Shown here one piece after another: positions 8,607 to 48,323 of a stretch of 64,000 nucleotides of DNA. The stretch's first letter is position 1, and each line of letters opens with the position of its first letter. This DNA is from Thuidium tamariscinum (Eukaryota > Streptophyta > Bryopsida > Hypnales > Thuidiaceae), in NCBI GenBank assembly GCA_947034885.2, contig OX344749.2, forward strand, positions 36,351,682 through 36,415,681, read 5' to 3'. The position numbers were made by a program, and so were the translations under genes. The notes below the pieces were generated by a model that worked only from the letters and a program-made list of their open reading frames with translations, did not search any database and was not told the DNA's origin.

Positions 8607-9529
8607 CCCCTAAAGGTTTTTGACTATGTTTTCACCAAAACTACTCCAAAACTGTCATTTTTAGGACAACTATCAAATTTTTAAAAAAAACATTTTTGGA
8701 ATAATGTAACCATAAGATCTTTTAGAAAACTAGTTCGAGAAGATGTAGAAAAAATTCAGAAAGTTTCGCCGTGTAGATTGCAAGATATTAGTGTTTGAAG
8801 TTGTAAAAGTCCTTTTTTTACTACTGCAAAAATCCAGGCAGCTGCAATTCAGAAGGTCACATTTGTATGAATTTTTTTTCAAAATTATTGTTATTCCTTG
8901 GATTCATTCTTCAATTCAAGTTGGCTACATGCTTGAAAGTTGTCAAATCATTTGGAATTGTACAACATGTACAAAAAAATAGTAAGTAGAAAGAAGTAGA
9001 GAATGATTCAAAATATTAAAATGTTAACAATTCATTTCTTGAATTGAAAAATGATAATCCCAAGGGTTCAAATGTTGTAATAAACAATCCACACCCAATT
9101 TTTTAATTTTTTTTCAAAAATATTGAAAATTGAATAAAATAAAGGACTTCAAAGTTTATTTTAGAGTAGGGAATCCATAACTACCCAGAAACTAAAATTC
9201 TTTATAACTTTTGACTCATTAATCCAAATGGAATGATTCAAATCTTTCCATGTATATATAAATCTATAAAAACCAATTTCAAATTTTTATTTCCACAAAA
9301 TGTGATTTTTAAAAATCTGCCCGAACTACCCGAGTTCAGAAACAAACAACATATTATGCAATAACTTTTCAACCATGTAGCCAAAAGTCACGAAAATTGT
9401 TGGGCTTTGAAGATACTCCTTGTCCACACCTTCTATTAAAGTTTGGTTCCAAAACATCGAAATCTCTAGTCACACGTACCTGCCCAAAACTGCTATGTTG
9501 CCAAAAAAGGCACTTTGGTCCTTTAGGGG
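8607..9529. mobile_element. piggyBac-like non-autonomous element P1 (923 bp)
   Basis: Both sides are flanked by TTAA (8603-8606 and 9530-9533). Left end CCCCTAAAGG, right end CCTTTAGGGG. The interior, read on the minus strand, resembles P2 and P3 (a phrase like tttgattcattctatttgg followed by a tgag-aaagttat stretch). Longest frames are under 70 codons. TTAA target choice and CCC..GGG ends are hallmarks of piggyBac transposons; the assignment is inference from ends only. Confidence 0.8.
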
Positions 9530-9533
9530 TTAA

Positions 9534-10892
9534 ATGTAAAGGCATTAGAGAATTTTTGAACTCTCTAGAAGGTTGATAAGCTTTGACAAGCCAATCTATT
9601 TCTTAAACCTTGACAAAATAGAATCTTTGATGCACAAAAAGAAGATTCACCTTAGGTGAATCTGGGGATTGACAAACAATATATTTTCTATTTTCTATTT
9701 TGCAATTGTTAGAAGAAGGGACTTGTTGTACCCTTCCTCCATTTTACTATTGATATTTGTAGTTCAATGCTTTGATGATTGGATGTACTAACAATGAACA
9801 ATAACAAGAGAAAAATTATTGTGCTACCAAAATAAATGTAATTTGGAGTCCCTTCCAATACCTCTTAGTGACCTTTTAGAGAGTCCAAATCTTCTCTGAT
9901 GGTAGAATGAACTTGTACTTTGAAGAGTGAATGTAGAAGCTTGGATTAGGGATTCTCTTAGCATAATATAATTTGACTCATGAATATGATATTTCAAAAA
10001 GAAGATACTCTTGTATGGGATCTATTAAAAGATGATTATTCCTTTTTAAAAAAATAAAAATCCATATTTTCTTTGTATTTTATAAAGGAAATTGTAGGTA
10101 TTTTTTAGAAACAGAGGGAGTACATATCAATCAAGCCTACATTAGATTGGTCTTTGGAGATTAGAATATTGTATTTGATTATTTTAGTGGCATAGGTGCC
10201 TTTCCATCTAGGTATATACAATGAATTAGATGACATTTCCATACATGGAAGTTGCTACATTTCTCTTTTAATTGAGAGTAAATCCATTTTCGTGAACTAA
10301 GCTCTACAATAGATGTACCCATTACTAACACACGGCCCATCAACAATAAATAGAGTACCCTATTTCCAATCAAGATTTGAATGGATTTTGTTTTTTTCCT
10401 TCGAAAGTGTGTCTTTGTATTTTTTTCAAGGTTCCAATCAATAAGTTAATGACACATAAGCGAGCACAAAAGTATGAATTAATTAGCAAGGAAAGTAGTT
10501 CTTGAATGATTAGAATTAGATGACTCTTGATGTTGGTCAAGGCCAACTTTTTGCCTTTCAAAATTCATAGTAACTTCAATTCAAGAGATAAAATTACCAA
10601 ATTTTTTGTAATCCCCATTATTTTTGTCAATGAACCTCTCTAAATATTTGCTTTGCCATGCACTACCCAAGATCATGTCCAAATGTGCTTATTTTCTCAG
10701 TTGCGGGTACCTCTACCATAGTTTGTTTCACCCGATGAGAGGCATTCAAACCACTTGCTTGGGCAGGAAGCTCACAGCAATGTTGGTTATCCTCAGGTGA
10801 AAAAAAGGAACAACATTCAAGAGCTAAAAACTGTATATGATAAGCTAGGATGCTCAAAACTACCTTAAAAATATCATGAGTTACATAAGTTA
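9534..10892. other. AT-rich intergenic DNA
   Basis: Only short open frames without recognisable domains. No clear repeat borders. Confidence 0.35.
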
Positions 10893-11165
10893 AGGTAGGT
10901 ACACCCAAAATGGCACCTGACCTAAAGGTGTCATCTACAATGTGCATACATTTCCAAAATCAGTCATGTATCCAGTCTGTAGATGGCGCTTTCAAAAACA
11001 GACTTTGACCGTTAATAACTTTTGCATATGGTATCCAAATCCGCTGTTCTTTGGTGCATTGGAACATGCTTTCACTTGCCAACAAGACTGTATAAAAATC
11101 TGAACAGCATGATAACAGGACCTAGGCACAGTAAGAATAAGTGGCACTTTTAGGTGTACCCACCT
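10893..11165. mobile_element. Stowaway-like foldback family B, copy 1
   Basis: Ends AGGTAGGTACACCC and GGTGTACCCACCT are inverted and flanked by TA on both sides. About 273 bp, non-coding. Five other copies lie in the window. TA duplication fits Tc1/mariner-type MITEs. Confidence 0.85.
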
Positions 11166-12689
11166 TACTGGGATTTTGAGGACCCTGATCTGAAGATCTG
11201 TAGTTCGCAACTCCCAATATTATGGAGACGGCAAGGGAAAACGCCACTGTAAGAAGCACGGTACACCACTTTTCTTGACTGTTGAGCTTGCGATGGCGAC
11301 GCCATGGTCATTCAATCTCAACCTTCCAATCTCAGCTACAGTGACGTTCCATTTGAATTTCTATCGACGTTGATCTTTTGCGCTGTGAAATTATGCAGTG
11401 CTTGAGCTCATCTCATACAAAGATTACAAAACTCAGCGGTGTATACTTGGTCTTCCCGATGCTCTTGTCTCGCGGCGGAGAAGCAACTTTGCGAAGATCA
11501 TCCATTCAATAGAAGCTCCATGGGATATTGTTCGCTCGAGAATTCTCTAGGCCATATCTCACTCAAAGAGTTTAGTAGTTTGCATGGAATTTAGGCCTTG
11601 ACTGAATTACGCGAGGACCTGGCCCGAAGGAGAGAGACGAATTGTTCAGAGAAGGCGTTTTACAATCATCTTACACTCGCAACCACTTCGCAATGCCGCA
11701 CGGAATGGGAGGCAACCTAGGGCTTTCTGCCAGAAATTTATTTGATCCTTGAGATGCCACAGACAATCGAGAATGTCTACGGATCAAGAACAGGTCCGCT
11801 TTGAAAATGTGTTTGTGGGAAATTACAGCCCTAAAACCTAGATCTGTCGTGAAAGTTCCAATGAACCTCAGATTTCCGTGAGTGCGAGCAATGCTGCAGA
11901 TATTGTGATGATGAAGGAGCAATGGGTGCAAGGAGAAATTTCGGTAGTAGGAGGAATTGATTGATGTTTTCCAACTATCTTGGAACAAGAGGCTGGCTTA
12001 TTTGTGAGAGAAGCTTGATGGGGGCATTGTACTGTATGATGATTGCCTGGTGATAAGTTGAAATTTAACAAACCGCGTTGAACCGGTTCTGGTTCCTATA
12101 CAGTAAGGGATGACAACGACGCGGGTGATGGATTCGACTGCCCCATCCATTTTGATTCCTCAAGCTGACCTGCTGCGGATTTGTTCTTTATTGCTGCCCA
12201 TCATCACGAGTTTACTTTAGAAAGCGCTCAAAGTCATTTAACCCAAAGTGGAGAAGACGAGGGAGAAGATTGAGAAGAGGTTAGCGTTTCTGCAAGGAGC
12301 CTGCAATGGCTGTCACGGTGAGGATCTCAAAATGGTGGAAGAATGGTACGGTTGGAGAGGCTGAAGGATGCCATTCAGCTAGCAAACAGCGACATTCACA
12401 ATTTCGTCTCTAATTTGTCGGTGAGGATCACCTCCATGGTCATGATAGGTTAGAAGATATCACTGTGCTCGCTGTCCTTTGAGCTTTACATCGAGGCCAT
12501 TGTAACGAATACACCAAAATGTGAAATTATTATGGGTCCATTACACTTCGCAAATGAGATTTAAAGAACAACCTTTAAGCTGCAGGCCCGGATCTCAAAT
12601 ATCACTTGTGACAATTTGCTATGATGAATTTGGTGTTACGATGGACTGCAATTCCGCGATCCATTGCTTGAGATTGAAAATTTACATAT
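11166..12689. other. Intergenic region with faint coding-like patches
   Basis: Around 12241-12430 the plus strand holds lysine/glutamate-rich coding-like stretches (for example EKTREKIEKRLAFLQGAC) broken by stops and frame changes. I do not recognise a family. The rest shows nothing. Confidence 0.25.
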
Positions 12690-12930
12690 CAAAGGTGTGT
12701 CCCGCATGCAGGTCGTTGTCGAAAGGCTACTACGCCATGATAGGCCCCTTGAACGAGACTCTTGAGCGAGCCATGCTCCCCGCGAGCCACAAACTTGCAA
12801 GGCTCACACACAACGTCCAAAGTTGCGGGGCATTACGTGTGTAAGGCGAGCTTTCTAGGCTATGTTGAAGGTGCACCGCGAGGGATGACTCTCCGAGCAC
12901 ACATTGCCTCCTACAAGGTGACTTTCATGA
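12690..12930 (+). pseudogene. Subtilisin-like protease fragment
   Basis: The plus strand reads SKGYYAMIGPLNETLE in one frame and then, after a shift near 12765, SPRATNLQGSHTTSKVAG and ASFLGYVEGAPRGM with ITSYKV-like ending (IASYKVTF). These match in order the plant subtilase stretch that holds the catalytic histidine (SPRDTDGHGTHT) and the downstream G-A-RGMAPRARIA-YKV block. The first His of the HGTHT motif is Gln here, and no Asp, Asn or Ser catalytic blocks are found nearby, so it cannot encode an active protease. It is a short relic of one exon region. The family call is from motif order, not a search. Confidence 0.75.
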
Positions 12931-13228
12931 GTACCTCAACTGACTTTTTGACGTGCCCCTTCTCCAAGATCTTTGTACACATGATGCAGGTGATGTATTC
13001 TTGTCATAAATAATGTTTTTTCTATCTTATCAGTTTTCAAACTACACTCAAACATCTCTATATGAACGATATTTTTGAATATTCTGTACATTTACGACTC
13101 CATCAGTAGCACACCTGTAGCACATCCATAGTGAGAAAGTTGGTATCCCAGGTGGTAAGATGAAGAGTTTTGAATGTACTGGTGTTTGTATGTTCTCATG
13201 ATATATTGTCTTCTCAATTGATGATGCT

Positions 13229-13511
13229 CAATACGCAGATGATGACCATTCTTTACCAGAATGATATTGGTGGCTTGCAAGTGCTCTGAAAAGATGGGCT
13301 TCCAGCCTGACGAGAGCACGTTCGTTGTGAAGGTTGACGACACGTTCATGGTACGGTACACTCAACTCTCACGTTGTGCACGTTACCAACACAAATTTGT
13401 ACTTCATGTTTCCCGTAAATTAATAGGATCTGTCTATATTTTTTGTGCTTGTTTCAGGCTCCTACGAATGGCATCTTGCACAGTGTTGCGCAGCGCATTG
13501 AGCCTCAGTGA
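13229..13511 (+). pseudogene. 2OG-Fe(II) oxygenase fragment with an intron relic
   Basis: Plus-strand residues MMTILYQNDIGGLQVL resemble the LTIL-QDDVGGLQVL stretch just after the HxD iron motif of plant 2OG dioxygenases. After a stop and a frame change comes STFVVKVDDTFM, like the family's GAFVVNVGD. A GT (after 13347) and a TTTCAG acceptor (13457) then lead to TNGILHSVAQR, like SNGRYKSVEHR with the second iron histidine region changed to Gln. The HTD motif appears as NTQ. Stops, shifts and lost metal ligands show it is dead. Its last part recurs at 36890-36945. Confidence 0.6.
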
Positions 13512-14120
13512 ATGCCCAGGTTAGCTCAGGAACATGGCCATGGAGGTTTTGAACGACAGAATTGAGGTCTGTAGCCTGTCACGCCAGGCAAAGTATGTGG
13601 AAAACAACTCACTTGTTGCCTTCTTGTTTAGCTACTGGGAAATCCGCTACAGTTCGACACTTGCATTTGCAGCTCTAGCGCGTCGTTATATTGACTTTCT
13701 GAATGTTTACAAACCGGAGTCTGCAAGGCGAGTCATTTCAGGGTTTTGAGTTTTTCTACAGGTAAGAGTCTCAATATGGAAATCCAATCAGTTTTTCGTG
13801 AAGGTTCTTAAGATTTGGGGAGTGGATCTGACAGATCATGTGTCTGTAATCTTCAGGATAGAGGTTATGAGCTGCTCACCCCTTTCTCTCGCAAGAAATT
13901 AGCTCAGCAAATCTGCAACATCAGCATGAAGAAGGCAATGGTGGATATCAGGGTCATCGAATGACAAGCGCTCTACATCCAAGCTCAGCCCTCAGTTAAT
14001 AACTTCAAGAGTCGGTGATTAGTTAAAATCTTCTGCATTCCATCCTAAAGTGTCTTCAGATGCTACACTGGAAAACCTTCACGTTTGAGTGCTGGCGTCA
14101 TGAGCTGTCGCGCCCCTTGT
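13440..14120. repeat. Left part of unit U1 (paralogous region R)
   Basis: The stretch from the oxygenase relic through 'aggaacatggccatggaggt' and 'aacttcaagag' matches 36890-37900 and, in part, 40200-40560. A strongly AT-shifted version lies at about 22070-22360. It precedes the 3' end of a chlorophyllase copy in each case. Open frames on it are shared by descent and show no domain. Confidence 0.7.
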
Positions 14121-14714
14121 GAAGTCAGATGACTTACCCACAATATTATTGAAGCTTGCAGAATCCAGTTGCAACAAATGCAACAAAAAACACGTTACCC
14201 AACACGTAACCATTTGGTTAATAAGCGGCTAGCAGCTTATAGATGAAACAGGGCTACACCACTTGTTCAATGAGGGGAGAACAATTCAAGGTAAAGACAC
14301 TTTTCAAGCACTCTCCATTCCAACTTCCAAAAATCATAACTAAATTAATACGAGTCAAAACAACATCAGTTAAAATGAGTTAGATTTAGTCTCTACTTAT
14401 CTATCTTATCGATGCTTAATAGGACAACTTATGACACTCCACCTTCCACCAACTTTGTGAACAACATGTTTGCGTAATTTACACAACTCGGAAATTCTTT
14501 ATTTCCAAATGCAACCAAGTTGATCCCAAACACCATACCAGACTGAGCGTGATTGAGCTTCAGCCATTCACTAAGTTAATCACAAACTGAACTCATCACC
14601 AAGTGAACAAAACCTAAACAAACCAGAACGTTCACCACCACCAATACCTAAACAAACCCGGCCTCCTTCTACCACAAACCCCGAGCAACTTTAATTTACA
14701 TGCGCCATGAAAAG

Positions 14715-16322
14715 CTATGCGTCTGCATACTGATGAGCCGCAGAGTTACATGATGCGTTGCCTTCAAGCTTACACTGGGGGACATCCAGATCCACAGGGG
14801 CCGGTACTGCTTGCGTCAACGCATCCGAAAGTGACTTATTGTTATGAAAGAACACATCCTGCAGGAAAGCTACCGTAATGCCTGCTGAAAATTGGCGCAT
14901 GGGTTGTCGAGAGGAGCCTTCCTTGCAGATGGGGAAGCAGCGAAATGTTGTCACCTGATCAAGCCACCCACAATCATCGGTGAAATCCATGTGGCCGTAA
15001 TTGGTCGCCACGAAATGAAAGGAAGCAGGTTTCAGATCGGTGTAGAAATTGATGTGGCCCTGGTCCTTCGGGGCACAGGCTGGAAGCCAGCCTCCCAACT
15101 TCTGCGACCCCAGTCCTGTCCCCACAATGAGAGTGGGCACACCAACGTCCATGGAATCCTCCTTGTGCGTCCAGACGGTAGAAGGATTTGTGTCCACAGG
15201 GTCGAGCCCCACAATCGCTGAGTACTTCTGTGATGCGCTGCCGTAGTTGAGTGCAATGCCAAATGCAACCAGTCCCCCACGACTGTGACCTGCGATTGCC
15301 ACTTTTTCAAAATCAGGTTGATAGTTTGCGAAGGCGCGTGGCAGCGATGCTATCAACCCCGTCTTCATCCAGTTTAATATGGATCTTGCATTTTTTATCT
15401 CAGTTTTTGGGTCCGTTGGTATGAAACCATACATCTGGAGAGCACAAGAAACCCACTGTTAAATCGATCCACCAGTAACTCACCAGCCTTGTTTCAAAGC
15501 ACCAAAATCGTGAAATTCAACGGCATTGAAGCACCCTAGAAACGAGATAATTCGGTATAGATTTGAGATTCGAGACAGGCTCAGATTAGACTTGAAGGAC
15601 TACTATTTAAACTAGTTTTTGTCAATCTATTGCCTATCTGACCAGCTCCCTAAGATTTTGAAATTTCAAAGCCTGGTCCCTAAAGTTAGTACAAAGGTCC
15701 ACGGGTGAACATTGACACATTGCTCAAATGCTTGAAGAAGAGATGATTGTGAAAGAGCTAACTGACCTGAGGAGCTACGACGATGAAGCCCCAAGATGCA
15801 ACCTGAGTGAGGAGTCCGGTGTAATCGGTATTCTGAAGCTCAAAGCCATGTTGGAATTGCACCACGGGATACCGACCTGCATCTTGTGGGAGTGCCACCC
15901 ACAGAGGGAAGCGAAGCGCTCCGCGTATCTCCACTCGGACAGTCGTTACTGAGTAGGATCCATTCTTGTAGAAGTCTCCCACAGTCTCCGTTACTGCACA
16001 GCTCGTCTGGAACTACAAAACGGCACATCTAATATTTAGAGATCAATCTTTACGAGGTGCAATCCATGCTGGTTTGTATGAACAGTATGAAACTAGACTT
16101 CTCTACTGATGCTCCATTTTCACAGAAATTAGAGTCTTACAGTATATATGATCTAAACTTCTGTCTATACTTCGGAATACGAAAATTGAATCGAAGTCAA
16201 GGTGTAATAAACAATTAAATTGACTGAAAGCAAAATCAAATCGAGGATGATCAGTAGATAGCAACCTGGCTCAAGCAGCACAAGAAGCTGAGCAAAAGGA
16301 GGAATCGTGTCGAAATCGCCAT
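14715..16322 (-). CDS. Chlorophyllase A
   Basis: Minus strand, exons 16266-16322 (19 codons), 15767-16006 (80) and 14715-15434 (239 plus stop), all phase 0; 338 aa. Chlorophyllase hydrolyses the phytol ester of chlorophyll to chlorophyllide. Visible hallmarks: FQHGFELQN oxyanion region in exon 2, GHSRGG nucleophile motif (Ser about 150), GLDPVDT (Asp about 177) and NYGHMDF (His about 247), matching the Ser-Asp-His triad of the family. Exon 1 encodes a hydrophobic leader (MAISTRFLLLLSFLCCLSQ) like a secretory signal, so ER or extracellular targeting is possible. The start is chosen because this leader is conserved in B, C and E. The ATG at 15434 is only the first codon after a splice acceptor. 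Intron 1 begins with GTTGCT, a weak donor, and the TATA box is altered, so expression may be reduced. Confidence 0.9.
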
Positions 16323-17589
16323 AGATGGTGCCAACAGGATGAGTGACTGAACTAAGATTCTCAGCTCTAGTGCGTACTCGTGAAACTTCAATCTGCTTCT
16401 ACAAACGCAATCGTCCACTTAGCTTACTGATGTTGCTTGCATTTCTTGTGCTTCTGTGAGGGACTGTGGGTTCCTATTTACATATCCAGCACGTGATTGA
16501 GTTCTCTCTGACGTACAGATCACATAATTTACCGAAGTGAAAAACAGGCAACTATGACTCCGCGGTGGTGCTTTTTCACAGTACTGTACAGGACAGGACA
16601 GGGAGATTATCCAAACAAGTGTATCAGAAGTTCACCAGATGATTTTTGTACGTACCCGGAACGGAAGGAAATGGTGGCCATCAGAGAAATTTAGTGACAC
16701 GTTGTTTTCGAGTTGGCAAACTGTACGCGGCAGGAATTAATGGCAATCCGGGAATCAGAGATAACCTGTCTGCGACGTATAGGTCAAGTCCTCAACTGGC
16801 TGATGGACATGCCCTTGGTTAACTTCCAAGATCTTAAGATTGTGTTGGTGGGGTGTTTGCCACCATAGTTTACCCAACTACCGGTACTGTGGGATTAAGT
16901 GACCTCATCATCATCTGAGAATTTGAGATTTTCTCAAGGAAAACAATGTGACTTCTTCATAGTTAGGTTTTGTCTTCTAAAGAAGGCATTAAGGATGAAA
17001 TTGGCCATCTAGATCCATGAGGCTTAAATAGATGTTTCATCCTAAGAAATGCTTCATTCACACCCATCTTTCAAAACTAGAGCTAAGTAAACCTTCTTGT
17101 GTGATCTCAAATATCTGAAAGCAATTTGTAGAGTATGAAAGGCTAATTATGTAATAGCATTCATGCTGCCTAGCTCGGTTCCATACCTCGCCCATATGGG
17201 CACCAGTTGATTGACCTCCTACCTATTACTAATCCACTTTCTAAGTTACATGATCAGTTTAAGTTAGATCCACGCGGTTCCAACAATGTACACTCAGGAA
17301 TGTGTATTTATGAACCACACCAAACGCCGAGTATCATAAGTGAAAGGATTCTCGTCGCCAGGTGCTGTGGAGGAGCGCACATGTTTGAGAATCGAGACAC
17401 CTCGTGTGAGAAAATGCCGTGGCTCACGCATGTCTATCAGTTAGTCTCACATGCTCATTGCCGGATCCTGATCTGCTACAGCAAGGGGCCGCCCCTTGCT
17501 GCCAAAAATACTCTTCTTTTTGTATGAAAAAAAAAAGAAAAAGAAAAGAAGACTCTTCAAGGACACGGTACACACTACAAACCGGTTTT
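16323..17589. other. Upstream region of gene A
   Basis: Promoter side of gene A. At 16474-16482 the minus strand reads TGTAAATAG where genes B and C have TATAAATAG. From about 16740 on it matches 38800-39640 and 43920-45600, the corresponding upstream parts of other units. An open frame at 17207-17527 has no recognisable domain. Confidence 0.5.
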
Positions 17590-17845
17590 GTCTAAAGTAG
17601 TGCGACGAGCCGTTTGCAGAGCTCCAGGCAAGGGTGGAAGTAAGAAAAAGCCCCTTAGTTTGTGCCGTGTTTTTTTCCAGATGTAATCACCTTCCCACAC
17701 TAATTAGGGATCTCTGATTGCAAATATGAACTCAGAATTTGCAAATTTTAATCTGCGTAGTAAATAAAACGTTTCAACATTTTCCCTAGGATAAAAACAG
17801 GGGGGCAAAACGGCCTCTGTAAATGGCTCATCACACTACTATAGA
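17590..17845. mobile_element. MITE family F, copy 2
   Basis: Left end GTCTAAAGTAGTGCGACGAG; right end reverse-complemented ATCTATAGTAGTGTGATGAG. Interior homologous to 4775-5030. Confidence 0.75.
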
Positions 17846-17878
17846 TGCGGCCATACAAATCAATCAATGAAGTCTAAG

Positions 17879-18600: not shown

Positions 18601-18686
18601 CCTAACCACTGGCTTCAGAACATTATAACTTCTACAATAACTTCCTGAGGCTTGCTAAATGAGAGCAGACCCAGTTGCGCACCGCC

Positions 18687-18985: not shown

Positions 18986-18993
18986 TCACGTTA

Positions 18994-25487: not shown

Positions 25488-28400
25488 CTAAATGTCTGCA
25501 TACTGATGAGCCTTGGGAAGACAAGTTAGGTTGCCTAGGTTGCCTTTGCACTGGGGGAGATCCACAGTAACAGGGGGGTTCACTTCTTGCGTCAGCGCAG
25601 CCGAAAGTGCCGAGCTGTTATGGAAGAGAACATCCTGCAGGAAAGCCACCGTGATGCCTGCCGAGAACTGGCGCATGGGCTGCCGGGAGGAGTTTCCCTT
25701 GCAGGCAAGGCAGCGCCACTTACAATCGTCGTCGAGCATATCCATGTGGCCGTTATTGGTCGCCACGAAGTGGAAGGACGCAGGTTTCAGATCGGTGTAG
25801 AAATTGATGTGGCCCCGGTCCTCCGGGGCGCAGGCTTGACCAAATATCTTCTCAGGCCCCAGGCCTGTCCCCACAATGAGAGTGGGCACACCCACATCGA
25901 TGGAATTCGTCTTGTTCGTCAAGACGGTAGGCCGTTCTGTGTCCACAGGGTCGAGCCCCACGATTGCTGAGTACTTCCGTGATGCGTTGCCATTGCCGTT
26001 GTTGAGTGCGAGGGCAAACACAACCAGTCCCCCGCGACTGTGCCCAGCTAGTGCCACTTTCTCGAAATCAGGCGTATAATTCACGGGCAGCTGGGCTATC
26101 AACCCCGTCTTCATCCAGTCTAATACGGCTCTTGCATTTTTGATCTCAGTTGTTAAGGAAAAGTCCACGGGTGGCCATTTCAGGGGCCAAAATTGAAATT
26201 CAAACATCTGGAGAGCACAAGAAACCCATTGTTGAGTCGATCCACCAGTAACGCACTCACCTTGGATTTATAACCGAATGAATACCGGTTCGATTACTGT
26301 TGTCAATGTATCACAACTGATGTTTACAAGTGGGAATTGTTTTACTGTCTTGTGAGTGGCAACACCGAAGGCTGGGGTGCAGAGGATTATACGGAATAAG
26401 AGCCTCGTACGTGGAATTAAGAAAAAGATTAATATTAACCAGATCAGGTCCTGTATCATTCTTGACTGGGCAGGCAGATCGATCCTTCTGCGGTATTACT
26501 GTGACAAGAATGTGGTTGTCTTACAATGCATGGACAAGCTCCCATTCAAGAATTTCTACAGGGAAAAGGAGCCTCAAGGGATTCACGAAAAGCAGAAGGG
26601 GCCCTGTTTTGAAATTCAAGATTTGAATGTTATGCGGCGTAAGCGGAAATTATAATTTCGTTTTAATTTCCTAAGCTTTTGCAGTCCAGGGACACTTCCA
26701 GTCCTATCAGAGGCAAACACTAAATGATAAAACTAGTGAGTTGCATTGCTTGTCTCAATTCTCAAAGCATCAAAATTGTGACATTCAACGGCAAATTAAA
26801 GCCCTCTAGGAACGGGCCACTCGGTATAGATTTGAGATTCGAGACAGGCTCAGATAAGACATTCATGAAGGACTACCACTTAACCCCGAAGGAACCAAAG
26901 TTCCCTCAAGTAGGCTTGAAATTTAAGATAGGAAATTAGATTAGCTTTTTGAAAATATAATTTTCATTTCAATTGGTTCTTGGGACCAAAAGTCATGATG
27001 CCATTCTAAGTCCTAAAAGCAGTTTGTCAAGAAAATTAATTAATTAATTAATTAAACAAAATTCTCTCAAAGATTATGTTTTGATCTACTTCTATGGCTT
27101 TGAGTCACTCTATTTGGATTAATAATGAGAAAGTTATGGGCAATCTTGTATTTCACACAATTTAAGTGGCTTCTTGAAAAAACAACCAACTTAGAGTTCA
27201 TTTTTTAATACAATTCTTCAAATTTTTCAAAAACATTTACAATAGGGTGAAATTTTTTGCAAGCACAATCACACTATTGGGATTATAGTATTTCAATTCC
27301 ATCTTAAAGTTATTAACAATTTGATGTTTTGTTCAATCTTGGACCTACTTTTACAATTTACTTAACAATTTTTTCAATGAAAGAAAGTCAAGTGTTTTTC
27401 AAGTTGTTTTCAAAAAAAATTCAATGACTGTCAACTCAAATGCTTAGCAATGCCAAAAAATTTCACAAAATGGAAATCAAAGTCATCTCAGAATGGTAGG
27501 CCAAAGTTTTAAAAAAAAAGCTTTTTCTTTCTAGCTTTGAAATTTTGAATGCTAATATCTTCCAATCTATGTGGTCAAACTTCATGAAATTTTCACCACA
27601 TGATTTGAGACAAGTGAAGTACAAGATCCTATGGTTAGATTTTAAGAATTTTTGTTTCTATTTCATGCTAGGCGAAAGTAGCAAACATGACAATTTTGAG
27701 TGGTTTTCAAGCTAGAAAATGCTTGGATTGTGAAGAGGTTCAATTGGATTTTGGTCAATATCTATCTTGCCTAAGTGGCAACCTCCGTAGGATTTTGAAA
27801 TTTCAAAGGGTCCATCAAGTAAGGTGGGTACACCTAAAATTGCACCTCACCTAAAAGTGCCATCTATAGTTGCTGTACATTTCTGAATTCCATTATGTAC
27901 CTATTTGGCTGGAGCTCTTTTAGAAACAGACTTTGAACCTTAATAACTTTCACATATTGTATCCAAATGCTGCGTTTTTTGGTGCATTGGAATGTGCTTT
28001 CACTTGCCAAGAAGACTATATGAAAATTTGATGAGACCAGTAATACTTACTAGGGCACAGTACCAAAAAGTGGCACTTTTAGGTGTACCCACCTTACATA
28101 CACTGATCAATACATTGAGAGTCTTGAGGAAGAGATGTGATTGCGATTCAAGAGCTAGCTCACCTCAGGAGCCACAACGATGAAGCCCCAAGACACAACC
28201 TGAGAGAGGAGTCCGGTGAAATCGGTATTGTGAAGCAGAAATCCATGTTGGAATTGCACCACGGGATACCGACCTGGACGTTCTGGGAATGCCACCCACA
28301 GACTGACGGGAAGCGCTCTCCCTCTCTTCACTCGGACAGGAGGCGCATGGCCGTAGGGTCCTTCCTTGAAGATGTCTCCCGCACTCGCCGTTACTGCACA

Positions 28401-28998
28401 AGCCGTCTGGAACCACAGGCAAAACCGCAAATTTACAGTTTTCCCAGGTTCGTTCGGAATGAGATCCAATGCATGCCAGTTTCTAAAGCTCATAACTTAT
28501 ACTGACTAATGCTCTATTCTGACTGAATTAGAGCCTTACAATATACAATTCAAATTTCTATCTACAATGATTTTCAATGTGAAAAAGGAAATCAAGCCTG
28601 TGCATGATGATATAATTAAACTGTCTAAAAATATAAGAAAATGGAGGATCTGTTAAACGAGACTCAAGAGCTGATGTACCTTAATTCAGTGAGATGATTT
28701 GATTAACGGAAGAGTACACTCAGATATACATATATAGGCAAGTATTCAATACTTCCAGCTACTACTCACCCTCTATCTACCTTACCTGCAATCCTTAATT
28801 AAGGTGCAGATTATAATACAAGAGGATGTTACCTAACGCCTAACTCATAATTTACAGGACAGGTGTTAATCAGCCGGGATGAGTGACTGTATATGTTCTG
28901 GGAGCATGCATTCAACAGGATCAGTGTAGATAGCAACGTACCTGGCTCAAGCAGCACAAGAAGCTGAGCAAAACGAGGAATCGTGTTGAAATCGCCAT
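25488..28998 (-). CDS. Chlorophyllase B
   Basis: Minus-strand exons 28942-28998 (19 codons), 28164-28406 (81) and 25488-26207 (239 plus stop); 339 aa. Donors are GTACGT and GTGAGC; acceptors are GTTCCAG and CTCTCCAG, all phase 0. Role as for A: hydrolysis of the chlorophyll phytol ester. It keeps the leader MAISTRFLVLLSFLCCLSQ, FQHGF, GHSRGG, GLDPVDT and NNGHMDMLDDD, the last being closest to the wording in known chlorophyllases. The protein ends HQYADI. Intron 2 (26208-28163) is swollen to 1956 bp by a TTAA-flanked element and a TA-flanked foldback, compared with 332 bp in A. With the best donors and an intact TATA box at 29145-29153, this is the copy most likely to be active. Confidence 0.92.
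26884..27738. mobile_element. piggyBac-like element P3 in intron 2 of gene B
   Basis: Left flank TTAA (26880-26883), right flank TTCA (27739-27742), probably a mutated TTAA. Left end CCCCGAAGGAACCAAAG. The introns of genes A (TTAA at 15607-15610) and C (43180-43183) are the matching empty sites. Interior homologous to P2. It contains a short (TTAA)n run near 27035-27053. Confidence 0.8.
27822..28094. mobile_element. Stowaway-like foldback B2 in intron 2 of gene B
   Basis: Ends AGGTGGGTACACC and GGTGTACCCACCT, flanked by TA on both sides. 273 bp. Confidence 0.85.
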
Positions 28999-30368: not shown

Positions 30369-31905
30369 GAATTTGACATTGGCCTTGAGGCCAAAAATTG
30401 GCCTCCCATTTTTGGTGCACCCAATTCAACAAGTTCGGGCCATGCCAGGGCCATGTCAAATCATCAAGAAAACTCTGACACAACAAATTGGCCCAACCTC
30501 TTGGTGCAAAGGTTTTGGGGGCTGATATAACTATATAAGCCTCTCAACCAATCACAAGCTAGGATTCTTGACCTCAAATACACCAAATTGGCCCCAACTC
30601 TTTGTGTAAAGTGGCCCTTGGATTGTTGATTATTCCCCAATAAACACTTCATTCATGCACTAGTCTTTCAAATTGGAACCCTCTTTCTTTATGTGATCTC
30701 AAGTATCTAAAAGGAGGTTGTCGAGTATAGAAGTCTAATATTATAGCTTGATGCCTTGGTTCTTAAGGTCTATATAGGCACCAACTGGTGTCTATATGAT
30801 TCTTTGGTACATGACACTTAAGCCTAAGCATTGCTAGCTAGTAGAAACATATTCATTTGGTGAAACATGCTAAAAAAAAACCTTACATTAGACTCAATTA
30901 GTTTAGTTTATCATTAAATATTTTTCTAGTGTACCTTTTTCACTGAGGTCCACTAAGCCAACATTTCTACTACTCTTTACTAGGAGTATACAATAACTTA
31001 TGTTCAAAAACCTATCAATTTATTTGCCAACCTACATATCACCTTAGTTTATGTAAAATCACATTTTTATGAACCCAAAAGTTAGATATGTCTTGAAAAT
31101 TTTGACAAATATTGAGCCAATATGGAAATGTTAGATTATTACATCTTAGTTTTTCTTTCATTTGTAGGTTTATTCTAATCTAGTACCTTGATCTCATAAA
31201 AAAGTGACAGGTTAGTGCCTTGTCATACAATGGGCTCAAAAATTTTAAAACTTTAAAATTTTATTTGATTTAAAAAATTCTAATGTTAAAATTTCATTTC
31301 ATTCTACATATACATTCCACCCCCTCTTATAATTTTGAGAGGGTGGGATTCTATGTAATCAATATGTGATAATGACAACATCATCCATATCCACATGCCG
31401 AATCCATATGTTATAGTCGTATCTAATATGTGTTGATTGTATCCATATCTATATACAATATTCAAATATTCATATGTAATATTTAAGTATCCATATCTTG
31501 ATTTTGTATTGTATTTTGAATTCATATTTGGAAGGCTCAAATTAAATCTCACAAAGATCAATGGCTTGTGATTTTTTGAAAAATAGATGATATATTTTTG
31601 GAAGGGAAACATTTTTTTTAATCTTAAATGAACAACTTGTGATTTTTTGAGAAAAGGGGGTGGAACTAAGGTGGGTATACCCAAAAGTGCAACTAACCTT
31701 AAAGCGCCATGTATATCCATTGTACATTTTCAAAATTAGTTATGTATACAGGTTGGAGATGGCACTTTTAGAAACACACTTTGATTCTTACTAACTTTTG
31801 CATATTGTTTCGAAATGCTATGTTCTTTGGTGCATTGGAACATGCTTTTATTTGTCAACAAGACTAGATGAAAATCTGAATGGCTTTATAATAGTAACTA
31901 GGCAC

Positions 31906-38766: not shown

Positions 38767-38769
38767 GCT

Positions 38770-40200: not shown

Positions 40201-40331
40201 AAAAACTTCAAGTATTTTACATTCAATATCAGGCCTTGTCCTATATCATATTCTCTCAACTCAAGCCCTCAGTTCATAACTTCAAGAGTTGGTTCAAATC
40301 ATTTGCATTTCATCCTAAAGTGTCTTCATAC

Positions 40332-40437
40332 CACTACAAAAAAAAGGGATATTTTAAATATAGTTCTAGTAGTATAATCTTTTAAGTAATGTCCTGTAAG
40401 TAAGATTTTTAGTAAAATTTTACTAAAAAAACTGTCT
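40332..40437. mobile_element. Possible CACTA end fragment
   Basis: Relative to 14047 and 37750 an extra stretch begins CACTACAAAAAAAAGGG, a typical CACTA-type end, but no matching right end is present. It also holds ttttagtaaaattttactaaaa. Confidence 0.4.
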
Positions 40438-41238
40438 ATATGCTACACCGGAAAACTTTCACTTTTGAGTGTTGCATCACGAGCTGTCGGACACCTAGTG
40501 AAGTCAGATGACTTACCCACACTGGATATTATTGAAGCTTGCAGAAGCCAGTTGCACGAAATGCAACAAAAAACACGTTACCTAACAGCTGGTGCAAGTA
40601 ACCAGTGCACTCGACCTACAGCCTACAGAACACTTCATATATTAAGGACGCCTCAAGTGACCAACATTCAACATACCAATACTTTTTTTCACACAGTCCA
40701 CTGCTTGATGGACAACGCATTGTTTATAACTGGTCCACGAGAACCTCCCTGTGGATATTAAGCTTATGACATTGGCATGTACACAAAGCTCCTGATATTG
40801 GATCCAAACTACATAGATCTTGAAAATTGACCTACCAAAATCACTCCATGTGAGTATTTGGCTAATAAGCGGCTCGGAGCTTACAGATGAAACAAGGCCA
40901 CACGACTTGTTTGAACAGTATAATTTGACTCAAAAATGTTTTCAAGTGTGCAACCCCTTTGAAAACCCATGCGTATCGATGCTTAAAAGGACAGTTTAGG
41001 GACACTGCTTTTCGCCAACTTTGTGAAGAACACTTAAATTGCAAAATTTACACATTAATAAGGACAATTCTTTATTTACAAATGCAATAAAGTTGATTTC
41101 AAGACAGCATACTACAACTCAGAATGAGCATGATAAAGCGTCAAAACCATTCCAAAACCACAAACATAACTCAGCACTAACAAAACCCAAACCAACCCAA
41201 ACCTTCACCACAAACCCCGAGCAATCTACCATGAAAAG

Positions 41239-43912
41239 CTAAATGTCTGCATACTGATGAGCCTTGGGAGGACAAGTTAGGTTGCCTTTGCACTGGGGGT
41301 GATCCAGACGCACAGGAGCTTTCGCTTTTTGCGTCAGTGCAGCCGAAAATGACGAGCTGTTATGGAAGAGAACATCCTGCAGGAAAGCCACCGTGATGCC
41401 TGCCGAAAACTGGCGCATGGGCTGCCGGGAGCCTCCCACGCAGATGGGTGAGCAATGCATTGCACACACCAGAGCCAGCGGGCCCCTGCAATCGTCGGTA
41501 AAATCCAAGTGGCCGTTACTTTTCGCCACGAAATGAAAGGATGCGGGTTTCAGTTCTTCGTAGAAAATGATGTGGCCCGTCTTCGTCGGGGCACAGGGTG
41601 ACTTCTTCCCTGTTCCCACAATGAGAGTGGGCACACCCACATCGATGGAATTCTTCTTGTGGTATTTCTTCAGGACGGTAAAAGGATCTGTGTCCTGAGG
41701 GTCGAGCCCCACAATAGCCGAATACTTCTGTGATGCGCTGGCGTTTTGGAGTGCGAGGTTAATGACAACCATTCCCCCGCGACTGTGCCCTGCTAGTGCC
41801 ACTTTCTCGAAATCAGGTCGATGTTTTGCGAAGGCGCATGGCAGCGATGCTATCAACCCCGTCTTCATCCAGTTTAATACGGATCTTGCATCGTTGGTCT
41901 CAGTTGTTGGGAGTGGTAGTTCGTCTCCCAATTCATACATCTGGCATGGAGAGCACAAGAAACCCACGGTTAAGTCGATTCATGCCACCAGTAACGTACT
42001 CACCTTGGATAACGGAATGAGTACCGATTATTGTTGCCAATATATCATAACGACTGAGTGGGAATTGAATTGATTTGCAGTCCTGTGATCGAGTAGCAAC
42101 TCTGAAGGCTGGGGTACAGAGAATTCTACAGAACGAAAGCCTCGATAACCCTGGAGCGCGCCGACGTTCACGGTTCTGGACGATGATCAGATTTAAAATT
42201 ACTTTTCTGTCTTGTTACTGCTTGGATGGAAGTCATCCTAGCTTTAAAAAATTCTTTATGAAGTTTTTGTTCTATCCAAGGGTTGGATTTGATATTACTT
42301 GAGTACATAATTTTCTAAAATTACAAAAGTGGAAGTATGACAAGTGGTTGACTTGCGTTGACTGTAGTTCAAAACCAAATTTGCAAAAATGAGGTCATAG
42401 AATTAAAGAACAAAAGATTTCAAAAAATCACCATATAAAGAGAACCTCATTTCAAACCCACTCCAACAAGTTGTACTTAAAAAATGACAATATTTTGTTT
42501 GTAATTGAATTTTGAAGGAATTTTGAAATTTTCCTTTCAAAATTTATAGAAACATATTGGTGAAAGCATTGAGGAATCTAATTGTGTAGATGAAATCTAG
42601 AACTCAAAATTTACTACTTCTGTTTGTGTCACAATCCCAAAATATTCTTCCAAATAGTACTTTATTAATGATTTTTCCCAAATCGTCAATTCTGGACATG
42701 ATTCCAGACGCTCTAGGGATAATTATTGAAAAAAAAAATCTGAACGACATCAGATCCCTTGAATGGGCAGGCAGCATCCTTCTTCAATCAGTTAGTATTA
42801 CTGTGACAAGAATGCAGCTGTGTTTCGGTGCCTTTGAATACATGGGCAAGCTCCCATTCAAGATGTGAGGAGCCTCGAGTGATTCATGAAGAGCAAAAGG
42901 GTCCCTGTTTTGAAGTTCAAGAATGTTATGCGGCCTAAGTAAGGGATTCGTTTTTCCTTCCGGTCCTAAACCTTTGCAGTCCGGGAGGGACACTTCCAGT
43001 CCTATCGATCAGACTCATAGAGGCAAACACTGAAGGATAGAACTAGTGAGTCACATTGGCTTGTCTCAAAGCACCAAAATTGTGACATTCAACGGCAAAT
43101 TAAAGCCCTCTAGAAACGAGATTCGGTACAGATTTGAGATTCGAGACAGGCTCAGATTAGACACTTGAGGACGAATTACTTAAACTGGATTTTTGCCAAT
43201 CTATCGCCTGTCTGGCTAAGTTAGCTCGGGCCTCGGATTTTGAAATTTCCGAGGGCCCCAAAGTTCTGAGGCTAAACATTGATACATTGAGAGCCAGGAA
43301 AAGAGATGTGATTGTGAAACAGCTAGCTCACCTGAGGAGCCACGACGATGAAGCCCCAAGACGCAACCTGAGTGAGGAGTCCGGTGTAATCGGTATTCTG
43401 AAGCTCAAAGCCATGTTGGAATTGCACCACGGGATACCGACCTGCATCTTGTGGGAGTGCCACCCACAGAGGGAAGCGAAGCGCTCCCCCTATCTCCACT
43501 CGGGCAGTCGCTACTGAAAAGGGTCCATTCTGCCACATGGGGTCACTCTCATGTGGATCCAGTCTCACAGTCTCCGTTACTGCACAAGCCGTCTGGAACC
43601 ACAAAACCACAAATATTTAATTCTTCCAGGTTCACTCTAAACAAGATCCAATCCATTTTAGTTTCTACCTGTAGCATATATGAAACTAGACTTCCCTACT
43701 GATGCTCCATTCTAACAGAAATTAGAGCTTTGCATATAATCTAAATTTTCGTCTAAAATTTTGAATGTGAGAAGTGAAGTCAAGGTGCATAATTATACAG
43801 TTAATTAAACTGTCTGAAATCAAAAGCAAAATATGGAGGATCAGCAGATAGTCACCTGGCTCAAGCAGCACAAGAAACTGAGCAAAAGGAGGAATCGTGT
43901 CAGAAGCGCCAT
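41239..43912 (-). CDS. Chlorophyllase C
   Basis: Minus-strand exons 43856-43912 (19 codons), 43332-43592 (87) and 41239-41940 (233 plus stop); 339 aa. Donors GTGACT and GTGAGC; acceptors GTTCCAG and CATGCCAG, all phase 0. Triad motifs are GHSRGG, GLDPQDT and SNGHLDFTDD. The leader is MALLTRFLLLLSFLCCLSQ. Compared with A it has a longer linker after TACAVTETV (LDPHESDPMW) and a shortened loop after GTGKK, so substrate loops differ. Intron 2 (1391 bp) holds a 570-bp insertion. The TATA box is intact at 44060-44068. An open frame could start further upstream of exon 3 (41967), but that lies in the intron. Function inferred from motif conservation. Confidence 0.9.
42149..42718. mobile_element. 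Insertion with CCCTRGAGCG ends in intron 2 of gene C (570 bp)
   Basis: Left CCCTGGAGCG, right CGCTCTAGGG, flanked by ATAA (42145-42148, 42719-42722), a 4-bp duplication. Its interior is the reverse complement of sequence near 34390-34890 and 52396-52850. No coding frame of note. Confidence 0.65.
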
Positions 43913-44059
43913 TGATGGAGCCAACAGGATGAGTGACTGAACTAAGATTCTCAGTTCCAAGGCTCTACTGCTCTTCAAGAAACTTCAGTCTGCTTTTAAC
44001 TTACAAACGCAGTCATCTACTTACTGATGTCCTTGTGCTCTGTGAGTGAGTGCGGGTTC

Positions 44060-44068
44060 CTATTTATA
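44060..44068 (-). promoter_or_regulatory. TATA box of chlorophyllase C
   Basis: TATAAATAG on the minus strand about 150 bp before the start codon, conserved with gene B. Confidence 0.75.
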
Positions 44069-44737
44069 ACATATCCGGAGTACTGCAGTTTTATCATTTA
44101 GACCATGTGGTCTGAAATGTGCTCTACTCTTAGATTTTTGACTGTGCGGTTTGAAATCTATATAAGTCCTAAAAAATGAATGGAAAAATGTCATTTGGAT
44201 ACGTCATTTTAATGAAATATCCATTTTATGTATTGATCATGATATTGACTTCTCTGACGAATCACACAATTTACCAATTAAAGTAAAAAATTGAAGTACC
44301 ACGGAACATAGTTTACCAATGAGGTAGGGATTCCTTAAGCATCATTGAAAAGAGAATTCCCATAGTGAATCAAATTGTCTTGCATGGCTCTTCAACCAAC
44401 CCCAATCCTGGCATTTACTTCGATGACCATTGCATGGTTATACAATGTCATGCATGAGTCCATGCTGGTGCTTTTTCTTCACAGTAAGGGGAGATTATCC
44501 GTACAAGGGCATGAGAAGTTCACCGTATAATTTTTGTACCAGGGATGGGGGGGAACCAGGAAATAGGGCCAAGCCATCAGATTTTTAAAAAAAATTAATG
44601 TGACACGTTGTTTCTGTGTTGGCATCCTGTAAAGCCTGGAATTAAAGGCAATCCAGGAATCAGAGAACCTCCAGGTTGGGACTCAAATCCTCAACTGGTT
44701 GATTGACATGCCCTTTGTTAACTTCCAAGGTTTGTGT

Positions 44738-44862
44738 ATAGGGCAATGCCCGAGGAGGAGGGTGTTATGGGAAATAACGGGCCGACAAGGAGGGTGGAGC
44801 CCAAGGAGGAGGCTTGTTATTTCCCATAACGCCCGACGACGAGGAGCTATTGCTCAACGTAA
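44738..44862. mobile_element. Hairpin insertion in the upstream region of gene C
   Basis: GTTATGGGAAATAAC and GTTATTTCCCATAAC form the core of two inverted arms of about 45 bases (GGGCAATGCCCGAGGAGG at the outer left, mirrored by a stretch ending in attgctc). The paralog near 16820 runs straight from aacttccaag to gattgtgt, so the arms and about 170 more bases (to about 45022) are inserted. Confidence 0.65.
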
Positions 44863-45711
44863 ATCACGAGTAGAGGATGACAAATGGAGGATGAGAAATT
44901 CAAGTCGGATGAGGAATCCATAATCCCTGATTATGCAAGAAAACCCGCGCAATCGGGCATTACGCTGCAGAAGCTTCTCGAGGAATGAACGGAGAAGTCG
45001 CTGGGAGTGATTTACGATTGTGTGATCTCAACTTCTTCAGGGTGTTGGTAGGGTGTTTAGTTGCTTAGCATTGTGGTTCACCTAACTATTGTAGGATCAA
45101 ATGATCTCAAAATTATATGGAGGTCTTAGAATTTTTAAGGAAAAACACATGATGCTTCTCTATAATGTCTATTTTCTAGCAAATGCATTGAAGATGGAAA
45201 TTGTCATTCATGTTTGCAAGGTTTAGATTGTTGTTTCATCCCCAATAGATACTCCATTCACACATACTGGTCTTTCTAATTGGAACCAACTCTCTTGTGT
45301 GATCTCAAGTGGAAGGAGATTGTAGAGCTTGGAAGTTTAATGTAATATAACATGATGCCTTGGTTCCAAAGACCGATATGACCACCATTTGGTGTTTGTA
45401 TGGTCCTTTGGTATATGAAACTCAAGCTTGAATATTGTCAATTAGTAGAAGCATATCAATGAAATGACATTGTGCTAATAAAATATTCACAATTAGTTTT
45501 GTTTGTCATGTAGGATTCTCTATGATAGTGGATCTTTTGTGTGGTCCATACAGCTAGGATTTTTGCTACTCCTATAGTACACAATAACTTGGTGCTTAAA
45601 GAGCTATTAGTGTACTATCCAACCTATACTTCACCTTTGTTTACGTAAAATGAGCTTTATAAGAATCAAAGAAGTGGATATGTTTTCAAAATTTTGACAA
45701 TTGTTGAAAGC

Positions 45712-45990
45712 ATTAGATGAAATTTGAGGGCATTGTGAGACCACAGGTTCCTAGACTGCAAGAATGCAGTTTTCTGCCTTGAGAACTAGAATCCTATGTG
45801 GTTGGGCCTCTGCCACATTATTAAAAAAATTTGAATTTTTTTTTGAATTTTTCTCATATTTCAAGATCCCCCAATTTATTTATTTATTTATTTTTGATAA
45901 ATGCCGGCCTAACAGCGGCCAATGACATTGGGAGCCGTTTTGAGAACAAACCCAAAAACGGCCCTATAATGCCCTCAAATTTCACCTAAT
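45712..45990. mobile_element. TIR MITE with ATTAGRTGAAATTTGAGGGC ends (279 bp)
   Basis: About 25-base inverted ends, one mismatch in the outer 20. GC-rich block with atgtggttgggcctctgcca near the left, AT-rich centre. The paralogs near 31110 and 50260 lack it. Confidence 0.8.
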
Positions 45991-46263
45991 GTATGAAAGT
46001 GCTAGATTCTATTTTTTTTCTTCCATTTGTAGATTTTTTCTAGTTTAGAACCTTACTCTAGCATAAAAAGATGGCAAAAAGCATCTCATTGGATAACATG
46101 GTTCTAACAATCTATAATCTAGTTTGTTTTTTAAGGCAATTAAATGCCCAATTTTTTCAAAATAAAATAGGCAACTTCAAGCCTATAGAAAAAAAATAAG
46201 GGAAAAATAATGTGTTAAAAATGCCAAACTGCAATAATGGTCCTAAACACCATTGCCACAGTG

Positions 46264-46499
46264 CGTCATTAGATGTTTTTTTGCCGATTAGAAGATTGCA
46301 AGTTTTGAACTGTGGGAATGTTGTGGAAATTCCTACATATGCAATCTGACGTGGCTGAGAGGCCACCACATTAGATAATAATAATAATTTTTAATTTAAA
46401 TTATTTTTTTCCAAAACTTTTTTATTTTTATTCATATTGTTCAGAGCATTAGGAATGGGCCTGAAACAATCTTCTAATCCCTCAAAAACATCTAATGCC
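46264..46499. mobile_element. TIR MITE with CATTAGATGTTTTT ends
   Basis: Left CATTAGATGTTTTTTTGCC and right inverse GCATTAGATGTTTTTGAGG, continued by GATTAGAAGATTG on both. Contains tctgacgtggctgagaggcc, the same kind of block as in 32196-32532 and 45712-45990. Confidence 0.7.
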
Positions 46500-46867
46500 A
46501 AAACCTCATTTCATCCATCTCGCAAAGCTAATACATACAAAAATTACATACAAAAATAACAAATTCCAAATGACATACTCTAGTCTAAAGTGGCCTTCTT
46601 CAATTGAAGCCTCCAAATAAAGGAGCAAGAGAACTTAAAGACTTCTTGAAAGGAAGGCCACATCACTATTGGTTCAAAAACTAAAAAAAACATTGCTACA
46701 ATCATACATGTGTATTAATACAAGACACTAAATCCTCCATTCAAACTGGGCCCCACAAGGTAATTTCAAGCGGTTCATAAGGGATAAAAGTAAGAACCAT
46801 AAATTTACTATTTTCCTAGATTTGTTTTGAATGAGATCTAATGCATGCTAGTTTCTACGGCTCATAA

Positions 46868-47020
46868 GGTAAATCATCCCATTATGAACCAAATGGGAGC
46901 AGACCCATTGTGATTCAAATTGTACTGGTGGTGTACATTCAAGAACTTGAATGTACACCACCACTAAAATCTGAGCCAATGGGTCTGCTCTTATTTATTC
47001 TGTAATGGGGTAGTTCACCC
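46868..47020. mobile_element. Tourist-like foldback MITE (153 bp)
   Basis: Almost entirely palindromic: arms meet at gtacattcaagaacttgaat. Flanked by TAA on both sides (46865-46867, 47021-47023). The other units read through without it. Confidence 0.85.
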
Positions 47021-47251
47021 TAAATGAAACTAGACTTCCCTGTTGATGCTCCATTCTGACATAAATTAGAGCCTTACAATACATAATTTAAAATTTCTGT
47101 CGATAAAATTTTGATAAATTAGAGCCTTACAATATATAATTTCAATTTCTATCTACAATGATATTGAATGTGAAAAATGAAGTCAAGCCTGTGCATAATG
47201 ATATACTAATAAAACTGTCTGAAAATATAAGAAAATGGAGGATCAGTATAA

Positions 47252-47382
47252 GAGCATCCCCATGCCTGCTCTTCAAAGCAACACTTTAAACATTTTGGAC
47301 CACTGATCTTCCTTGTCAGAAGAAGATCAATGGTCCAGAATGTTTGAAGTGCGGCATTTGAAGAGTAGGCATGGGGATGCTC
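47252..47382. mobile_element. GAGCATCCCC-ended foldback MITE (131 bp)
   Basis: GAGCATCCCCATGCCTGCTC is mirrored at the right end; TAA flanks both sides (47249-47251, 47383-47385). Same end family as the 783-bp element at 33002. Confidence 0.88.
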
Positions 47383-47397
47383 TAACTCAATAGCAAC

Positions 47398-47454
47398 CTG
47401 GGTCATGCAGCACAAGAAGCTGAGCAAAAGGAGGAATCGTGTTGAAATCGCCAT
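47398..47454 (-). pseudogene. Chlorophyllase E, orphan exon 1
   Basis: Encodes MAISTRFLLLLSFLCCMTQ, the same 19-codon leader exon as A-C, followed by GTTGCT at the donor position (as in A). Upstream is an almost intact promoter with TATAAATAC at 47611-47619. No exon 2 or 3 follows: the homology stops at about 46795 in intron 1. Transcription might start here but could not make a chlorophyllase. Confidence 0.88.
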
Positions 47455-47610
47455 TGATGGGGCCGACAGGACGAGTAACTGAACTGAGATTCTCAGCTCT
47501 AGTGCGTAGTACTCCTGAAACTTCAATCTCACTTACTTCTACAAACACAGTCGTCCACTTACTGATGTTGCATGCATTGGGCTACTGCTTCTGTGAGTGA
47601 ATGTGGGTTT

Positions 47611-47619
47611 GTATTTATA
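47611..47619 (-). promoter_or_regulatory. TATA box upstream of orphan exon E
   Basis: TATAAATAC on the minus strand, same position relative to the start codon as in B and C. Confidence 0.6.
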
Positions 47620-47786
47620 ACGGATATGGAGTATTTCATTGTAGTGGTGGTATTCCACAACCTTGGCAATTTTATCATTTAGACCATGCGTTCTGAATCA
47701 AATGTATACTACTACTAGATTTTAGACTATGTGGATTGTAATCTACATGTAGGTCCTAGAAAATGAATGGAAAAATGCCATTTTAA

Positions 47787-48323
47787 CCCCTAAAAGCCCA
47801 AGGGGGTAGGACAAAAACAAATGTGTTATAAAATGTAGGTTATGTATCTTTTTTGAAGTTAGTGTCAAAGAAGATAATGTAAGCAAAAAATGTAGAAAGT
47901 ATCCGTATGGTCAAAAGTATAAAATTATTTCTAGATTCTCTTCAAATGAAATTTGGAGATATAACTTCAAAAATTCACCAAGAATACAATTTCTTTATTT
48001 AGTATACACATTTTTTTTATTGGTCAAAATTCTGGTTTCTAATGATTTGTGAAAAAATGCTAAGGATCTAGTAATGAGACCATCAACACTTTTTCAAAAT
48101 AGTATGTTGTTCAACACTAGGCAATTCTAAACCTTTTGTACTATATCTCTTATAATTTTTGTTTGGCCGTATTGATCTTAGTTTTGAATATAAATGTTGA
48201 AAGAAAACCCAATTTTTTCAAAACCTGAAAAAAGAAAAAGTCTGAAAAAAGTTTTTCTTTTGCCCGAAAATTTTGCCTGAAGTCAAGCAGCAACCAAAAA
48301 ATGGTTGTTTGAGCGCTTAGGGG
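47787..48323. mobile_element. piggyBac-like element P4 (537 bp)
   Basis: Flanked by TTAA (47783-47786, 48324-48327). Ends CCCCTAAAAGC and GCGCTTAGGGG. The paralogs at 29321-29324 and 44209-44212 carry a single TTAA in otherwise matching sequence (ccattttaatgaaatat). Shorter than P1-P3; interior only weakly similar. Confidence 0.85.

Follow-up and report, generated by a model that had tools for sequence, protein, structure and literature searches.

What are the short, CCCC-ended insertions that lie between TTAA tetranucleotides in the 64,000-bp stretch of DNA shown above (hereafter the window), and by which transposase could they have been moved? The window belongs to contig C1 of the genome searched (363 Mb in 19 contigs). 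We take the host to be a moss on account of its LEAFY gene, of which two neighbouring exon matches reach 235 bits with 4bhk (LEAFY homolog 1), presumably the LEAFY protein of Physcomitrium, and 105–173 bits with the four other LEAFY chains listed. The four insertions, P1 to P4, are almost certainly miniature, non-coding members of the piggyBac superfamily in this moss nuclear genome. The superfamily is best known from animals, where its elements have CCC ends and target TTAA.

Four insertions and their copies in the genome

P1 (8607..9529, minus strand, 923 bp), P2 (19053..19971, plus strand, 919 bp) and P4 (47787..48323, unoriented, 537 bp) are non-autonomous elements with piggyBac-type ends. 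Each starts with CCCCTAAA, ends with AGGGG and has TTAA on both sides (8603-8606 and 9530-9533 for P1, 19049-19052 and 19972-19975 for P2, 47783-47786 and 48324-48327 for P4). The strand of P1 was set by its right end, which matches the transposase-upstream end of a transposase locus elsewhere in the genome (L027), and that of P2 by both of its ends, which match another such locus (L021). P3 (26884..27738, plus strand, 855 bp) is a decayed relative of P2 that starts with CCCCGAAG after the TTAA at 26880-26883. The coordinates given for all four in a preliminary description proved exact on re-reading, and the CCCC(T/G)AA starts, together with AGGGG and two TTAA in all but P3, were found as described there. 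An interior common to P1, P2 and P3 had also been reported and was recovered: P2 and P3 are 70% identical over 677 columns, and P1 aligns in inverted orientation with parts of both at 68–73%. None of the 27 stop-to-stop open reading frames (ORFs) of at least 110 codons in the window falls within P1–P4. TTAA occupies 413 of the 64,000 window positions, and the 12-mer TTAACCCCTAAA was observed three times on the plus strand of the window against an expectation of 0.009. The element ends at 8607, 19053 and 47787 contain CCCTAAA, the repeat unit of plant telomeres, probably by coincidence.

For P1, P2 and P4, genome copies were taken from the best 40 scored matches per element, window copy included. 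Full-length matches make up 38 of these for P2 (1-919), 35 for P1 (1-923) and 30 for P4 (1-537). With at least 40 long matches each, the three elements combine the features of miniature inverted-repeat transposable elements (MITEs), being short, non-coding, inverted at their ends and high in copy number. P3 has no close copy among its 39 other listed matches, which are at most 75% identical, the best of them being 75% over positions 39-839.

The preliminary description had suggested counting TTAA flanks over aligned genome copies. We read 30-base flanks of 19 P2, 20 P1 and 20 P4 copies. All were found with queries lacking flanks, and they were picked as top BLAST matches or as ties in score rather than at random. 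TTAA was present on both sides of 55 of the 59 (P2 18/19, P1 19/20, P4 18/20), so that P1, P2 and P4 display a duplicated TTAA target in the genome as they do in the window. Exact counting of the 20-base P2 left end, which is free of best-match selection bias, gave 597 genome occurrences, 557 of them preceded by TTAA, with none for reversed controls. The 12-mer TTAACCCCTAAA occurs 19,746 times in the genome versus 111 times for its reversed control. Among the first 100 listed sites, a spacing of 800–1000 bp was found in 13 of 29 convergent neighbours, in 0 of 29 divergent and in 0 of 41 same-strand neighbours; elements of P1 or P2 size with such ends must therefore be common in the genome. One further P2-type copy, excluded from the 19, is nested inside another P2-type copy with TTAA on both sides (L048, 1-1911). 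Back-to-back elements with one common TTAA were seen in L056, L057 and L015.

Autonomous elements and the ends shared with the miniatures

Longer copies with ends of the same type and a DDE_Tnp_1_7 domain, for which a search had been proposed, exist in the same genome. The PF13843 profile gave 658 first-look candidates and, among them, 116 scored matches. Every scored match exceeds the curated cut-off, the best reaching E 5.7e-80, and 14 control genomes gave none. Pfam assigns DDE_Tnp_1_7 at E 2e-76 or better to L014, L020 and L022, and in a PDB sequence search with the transposase the matches at E 0.001 were solely to piggyBat and piggyBac. Four catalytic aspartates, identified by alignment to the piggyBac and piggyBat chains and taken to correspond to T. 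ni D268, D346, D447 and D450, are invariant in 13/13 transposase rows. The predicted core of the L024 transposase (538 residues; predicted local distance difference test, pLDDT, 75) matches 6x67 at E 5.3e-23 and 9c0f at E 2.7e-21; chains of these two entries cover E 5e-23 to 1e-19, Tn5 follows at 1e-6 to 5e-5, and the next match lies at E 0.12. As judged from Pfam, from the catalytic aspartates and from the predicted fold, the transposase is that of a piggyBac, sharing its putative core fold and its aspartates with piggyBac of Trichoplusia ni (6x67) and with piggyBat (9c0f). A Cys/His-rich C-terminus is present in 11/13 rows; the L026 row stops before it and the L028 row holds just its start. 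Before the catalytic core, L014, L020, L022, L013 and L091 carry a recurring stretch that by eye appears small, beta-rich and Tudor-like.

Twenty transposase loci of 9–10 kb each, picked for score and for equal scores and not sampled at random, were then read. TTAACCC and GGGTTAA flank the transposase in all 20, and in 19 of them inverted CCC ends, alike at 8–12 of 12 bases, adjoin TTAA and delimit elements of 4.9–6.8 kb (L010 excluded). Because the motif guided the choice of boundaries, stronger evidence for the ends comes from L014–L019, six 5,088-bp copies that differ from one another by 0–1 bases, lie in different flanks and all have exactly those ends. Between L022 and L023 there are 14 differences in 5,086 positions. 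Many of the 116 transposase matches contain internal stops. Inverted pairs of transposases with equal or nearly equal scores, about 7–15 kb apart, were noticed at C8:19067897/19080436, C8:23933884/23941055 and C9:19502615/19517900; they may be palindromic duplications or assembly effects.

The 120-base ends of the miniatures were scored against those of the autonomous elements, with 400 interior controls giving null maxima of 14–17. P2 and L021 scored 48 and 47 (null maximum 14), P1 and L027 59 and 24 (null maximum 15), the left end of P1 scoring higher with L021 (33); for P1 and P2 both ends thus exceed all 400 interior controls. The right end of P3 scored 41 (null maximum 16). In alignment, P2 and L021 are 76% identical over the left 91 bases and 69% over the right 289 bases, and the right end of P1 is 74% identical to L027 over 125 columns. 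These scores tie P1, P2 and P3 to the L021/L024/L027 lineage. The earlier proposal that the insertions are non-autonomous plant piggyBac derivatives driven by a transposase encoded elsewhere is therefore supported for P1 and P2 by the two ends of each and for P3 by its right end, and finds no such support for P4, whose scores fall within the null. It is by its TTAA flanks, its CCCC ends and its copy behaviour, and by these alone, that P4 would be linked to piggyBac. In the mechanism that we envisage, a piggyBac transposase encoded elsewhere would bind the ends of P1–P4, cut the element out at TTAA and insert it into another TTAA; P1–P3 are most probably members of the L021/L024/L027 lineage that have lost the coding part.

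TTAA is not unique to piggyBac, since Kolobok and Sola3 also target it. P1–P4 could accordingly belong to one of these superfamilies, or to PIF/Harbinger if a three-base TAA or TTA duplication had been misread as four bases, and P4, having no matched autonomous partner, leaves most room for such an assignment. A three-base duplication would leave one outer base variable, whereas all four bases are retained before 557 of the 597 left ends, which argues against a PIF/Harbinger-type misreading. Moreover, the elements that P1 and P2 match at their two ends, and P3 at its right end, carry a piggyBac transposase, recognized by sequence and, for the L024 core, by predicted fold. For P1–P3 an origin in another superfamily is largely refuted, and for the four elements taken together we regard it as very improbable.

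Several observations weigh against the assignment of P1–P4 to piggyBac miniatures. P3 has no intact right end and no right TTAA: it closes with AGAGG followed by TTCA (27739-27742), and the score of its left end, 14, does not exceed the null maximum of 16. No partner of P4 was found, its ends scoring 17 and 15 against null maxima of 17 and 16. Matching ends are merely 69–76% identical and no direct parent was found. Four of the 59 copies read lack TTAA on a side, namely L033 of P2 (matched from base 3, TTAA left and TTTC right), L087 of P1 (ATAA and TGAA) and L049 and L053 of P4 (TTAC left and TTAG right, respectively); three of the other 55, the P4 copies L054, L059 and L061, have TTAA one base off, and 40 of the 597 P2 left ends are not preceded by TTAA. 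The transposase loci were scanned by eye for TTAACCC and GGGTTAA, and the count of ends depends on this motif. In L010 the left motif is internal, as an upstream reading frame of this element (ORF-A, see below) precedes it; its ends agree at 7/12 bases, and its true left end was not found. Finally, no transposition was observed.

Might these families be old relics that nothing moves any longer? P3 is decayed and has only the 75% match mentioned above, the P4 copies read are 3–7% from their consensus, and internal stops are frequent among the listed transposases, as such a history would have it. On the other hand, copies with TTAA lie in unrelated flanks on different contigs, twelve P1-type copies (L071–L082) show 0–7 differences in 923 bases, and the six autonomous copies are 0–1 differences apart in 5,088. 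We therefore consider relics unlikely, and infer recent movement from these twelve P1-type and six autonomous copies. Near-identical copies were picked as best matches or equal scorers and show that recent copies exist, not what age is typical. Distances to consensus, window copies included, are 0.1–12.8% for P1 (13 of 21 under 0.5%), 0.7–4.6% for P2 and 3.2–7.3% for P4; as the copy sets are best matches, they point to recent bursts and not to the age range.

ORF-A upstream of the transposase

ORF-A, a frame of about 160–340 codons, lies upstream of the transposase in 12 of the 14 distinct elements of the L009–L028 set, including L010, where it was found on reading the stretch before the first-drawn boundary. 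A conserved core of about 100 residues was common to 11 of the 14 elements compared before L010 was added. L021 and L024, to which P2 is most closely related, showed no ORF-A. In the six elements of the L014 group, third-codon-position bias in the ORF-A frame was found at 721-1080 and 1321-1440 and was absent at 1081-1320; in the transposase frame it extends over most of about 1560-4080, and is weak or absent at 1441-1560 and 2041-2280. Since substitutions concentrate at third codon positions, both frames are coding.

The ORF-A core has at least 149 matches in the genome. Upstream of 58 of the 116 listed transposases, a same-strand match lies no more than 6 kb away (at 1.2–3.9 kb). As a control, the downstream side and the other strand were examined to the same distance of 6 kb from each listed transposase, and no listed match was found there. 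The genome query was a single sequence and pairing was counted among the matches listed; the lack of a partner for 58 transposases and for 91 ORF-A matches is therefore no evidence of absence. Indeed, on reading, ORF-A is present in L013, L022, L026, L027 and L028, which are unpaired in the genome count, and L091, the sole unpaired ORF-A match read, has transposase fragments downstream of it, within a decayed element that shows a TTAACCCC end. The core is modelled as six helices (pLDDT 82; predicted template modelling score, pTM, 0.76). Comparison of ORF-A with Pfam and with PDB folds gave no convincing match, and no Myb-like family of Pfam was matched by 11 ORF-A members.

That ORF-A is no separate accessory protein, and that a long transposase has it as its first exon, is a reading that comes close to an even chance. 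In L014 coordinates, codon constraint in the ORF-A frame ends at about 1440 and constraint in the transposase frame begins at about 1560, an AG|GT site at this transition is common to five of six aligned elements, and in L011 and L020 the site precedes the ORF-A stop. In L014, L009 and L012, however, the ORF-A stop comes before the AG|GT site, and a splice there cannot join the frames. Furthermore, the transposase frame has ATG codons no more than 95 bases from the ORF-A stop in L011, L012, L014 and L020; in L009 one follows the stop by 124 bases. Tentatively, and at rather less than even odds, we propose that the moss piggyBacs are a two-component lineage: a hitherto undescribed, all-helical ORF-A protein would act together with the transposase, and this pair would recently have moved, in a land plant, autonomous elements as well as miniatures, which number in the thousands.

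The two-gene PIF/Harbinger elements of plants also have a second conserved ORF beside the transposase. They differ from the moss elements in transposase superfamily, ends and target, and in the Myb-like family that the ORF-A members did not match. The moss elements, at about 4.9–6.8 kb, encode long N-terminal parts, the longest open frame reaching 1,214 codons, and many of them have ORF-A, whereas the piggyBac and piggyBat chains in the PDB count 578 and 594 residues. The piggyBac-type MITEs of animals resemble the moss miniatures in being short and non-coding, with piggyBac-type ends and TTAA; a coral MITE paper, PMC2872659, reportedly mentions piggyBac many times. Unlike them, the miniatures described here reside in a moss, where ends are very numerous and near-identical autonomous copies occur alongside. 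No description of moss piggyBacs appeared among the top results of our open-access literature search, and relative to the literature searched the moss host with its very high end numbers, the near-identical autonomous copies and ORF-A are new. Studies such as PMC10905368 and PMC4309413 present piggyBac as a widely used tool for traceless gene delivery, with plant work relying on the insect element. A source adapted to plants would be at hand in a system native to a land plant, whose autonomous copies are nearly identical, and ORF-A would add a new factor to the biology of piggyBac. The miniatures would likewise make up a notable part of the moss genome and give rise to insertions in or close to genes, P3 being an example.

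Empty sites and gene context in the window

To look for empty sites, the flanks of each element were joined over one TTAA and aligned to the rest of the window. Two single-TTAA sites each had been claimed for P3 (15607, 43180) and P4 (29321, 44209); they are real, with alignments that cross the junction. Those of P3, which retains TTAA on its left beside TTCA on its right, span 42885..43258 and 15494..15689, and those of P4 29031..29366 and 43945..44290. The junction is ungapped in these alignments, and in three of the four, gaps lie some bases off. Absent from the preliminary description is a paralogous site of P2 (24042..24289, 76%), with GTAA where P2 has TTAA; a second, weaker one lies at 25227-24992 (68%, TTGA). 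No empty site of P1 was found within the window.

A Pfam scan of eight window ORFs revealed three C-terminal blocks and one N-terminal block of chlorophyllase (PF07224). P3 is placed between a C-terminal coding block (25491..26267, minus strand) and the N-terminal block (28158..28496, minus strand), both on the same strand, and would thus sit in an intron of a chlorophyllase gene, one of a tandem set. The window also contains direct repeats about 19.16 kb apart (30533-31905 and 49702-51065, 90–97%) and inverted repeats (27819-28054 and 48453-48688, 91%), from which it follows that segments of the array were duplicated.

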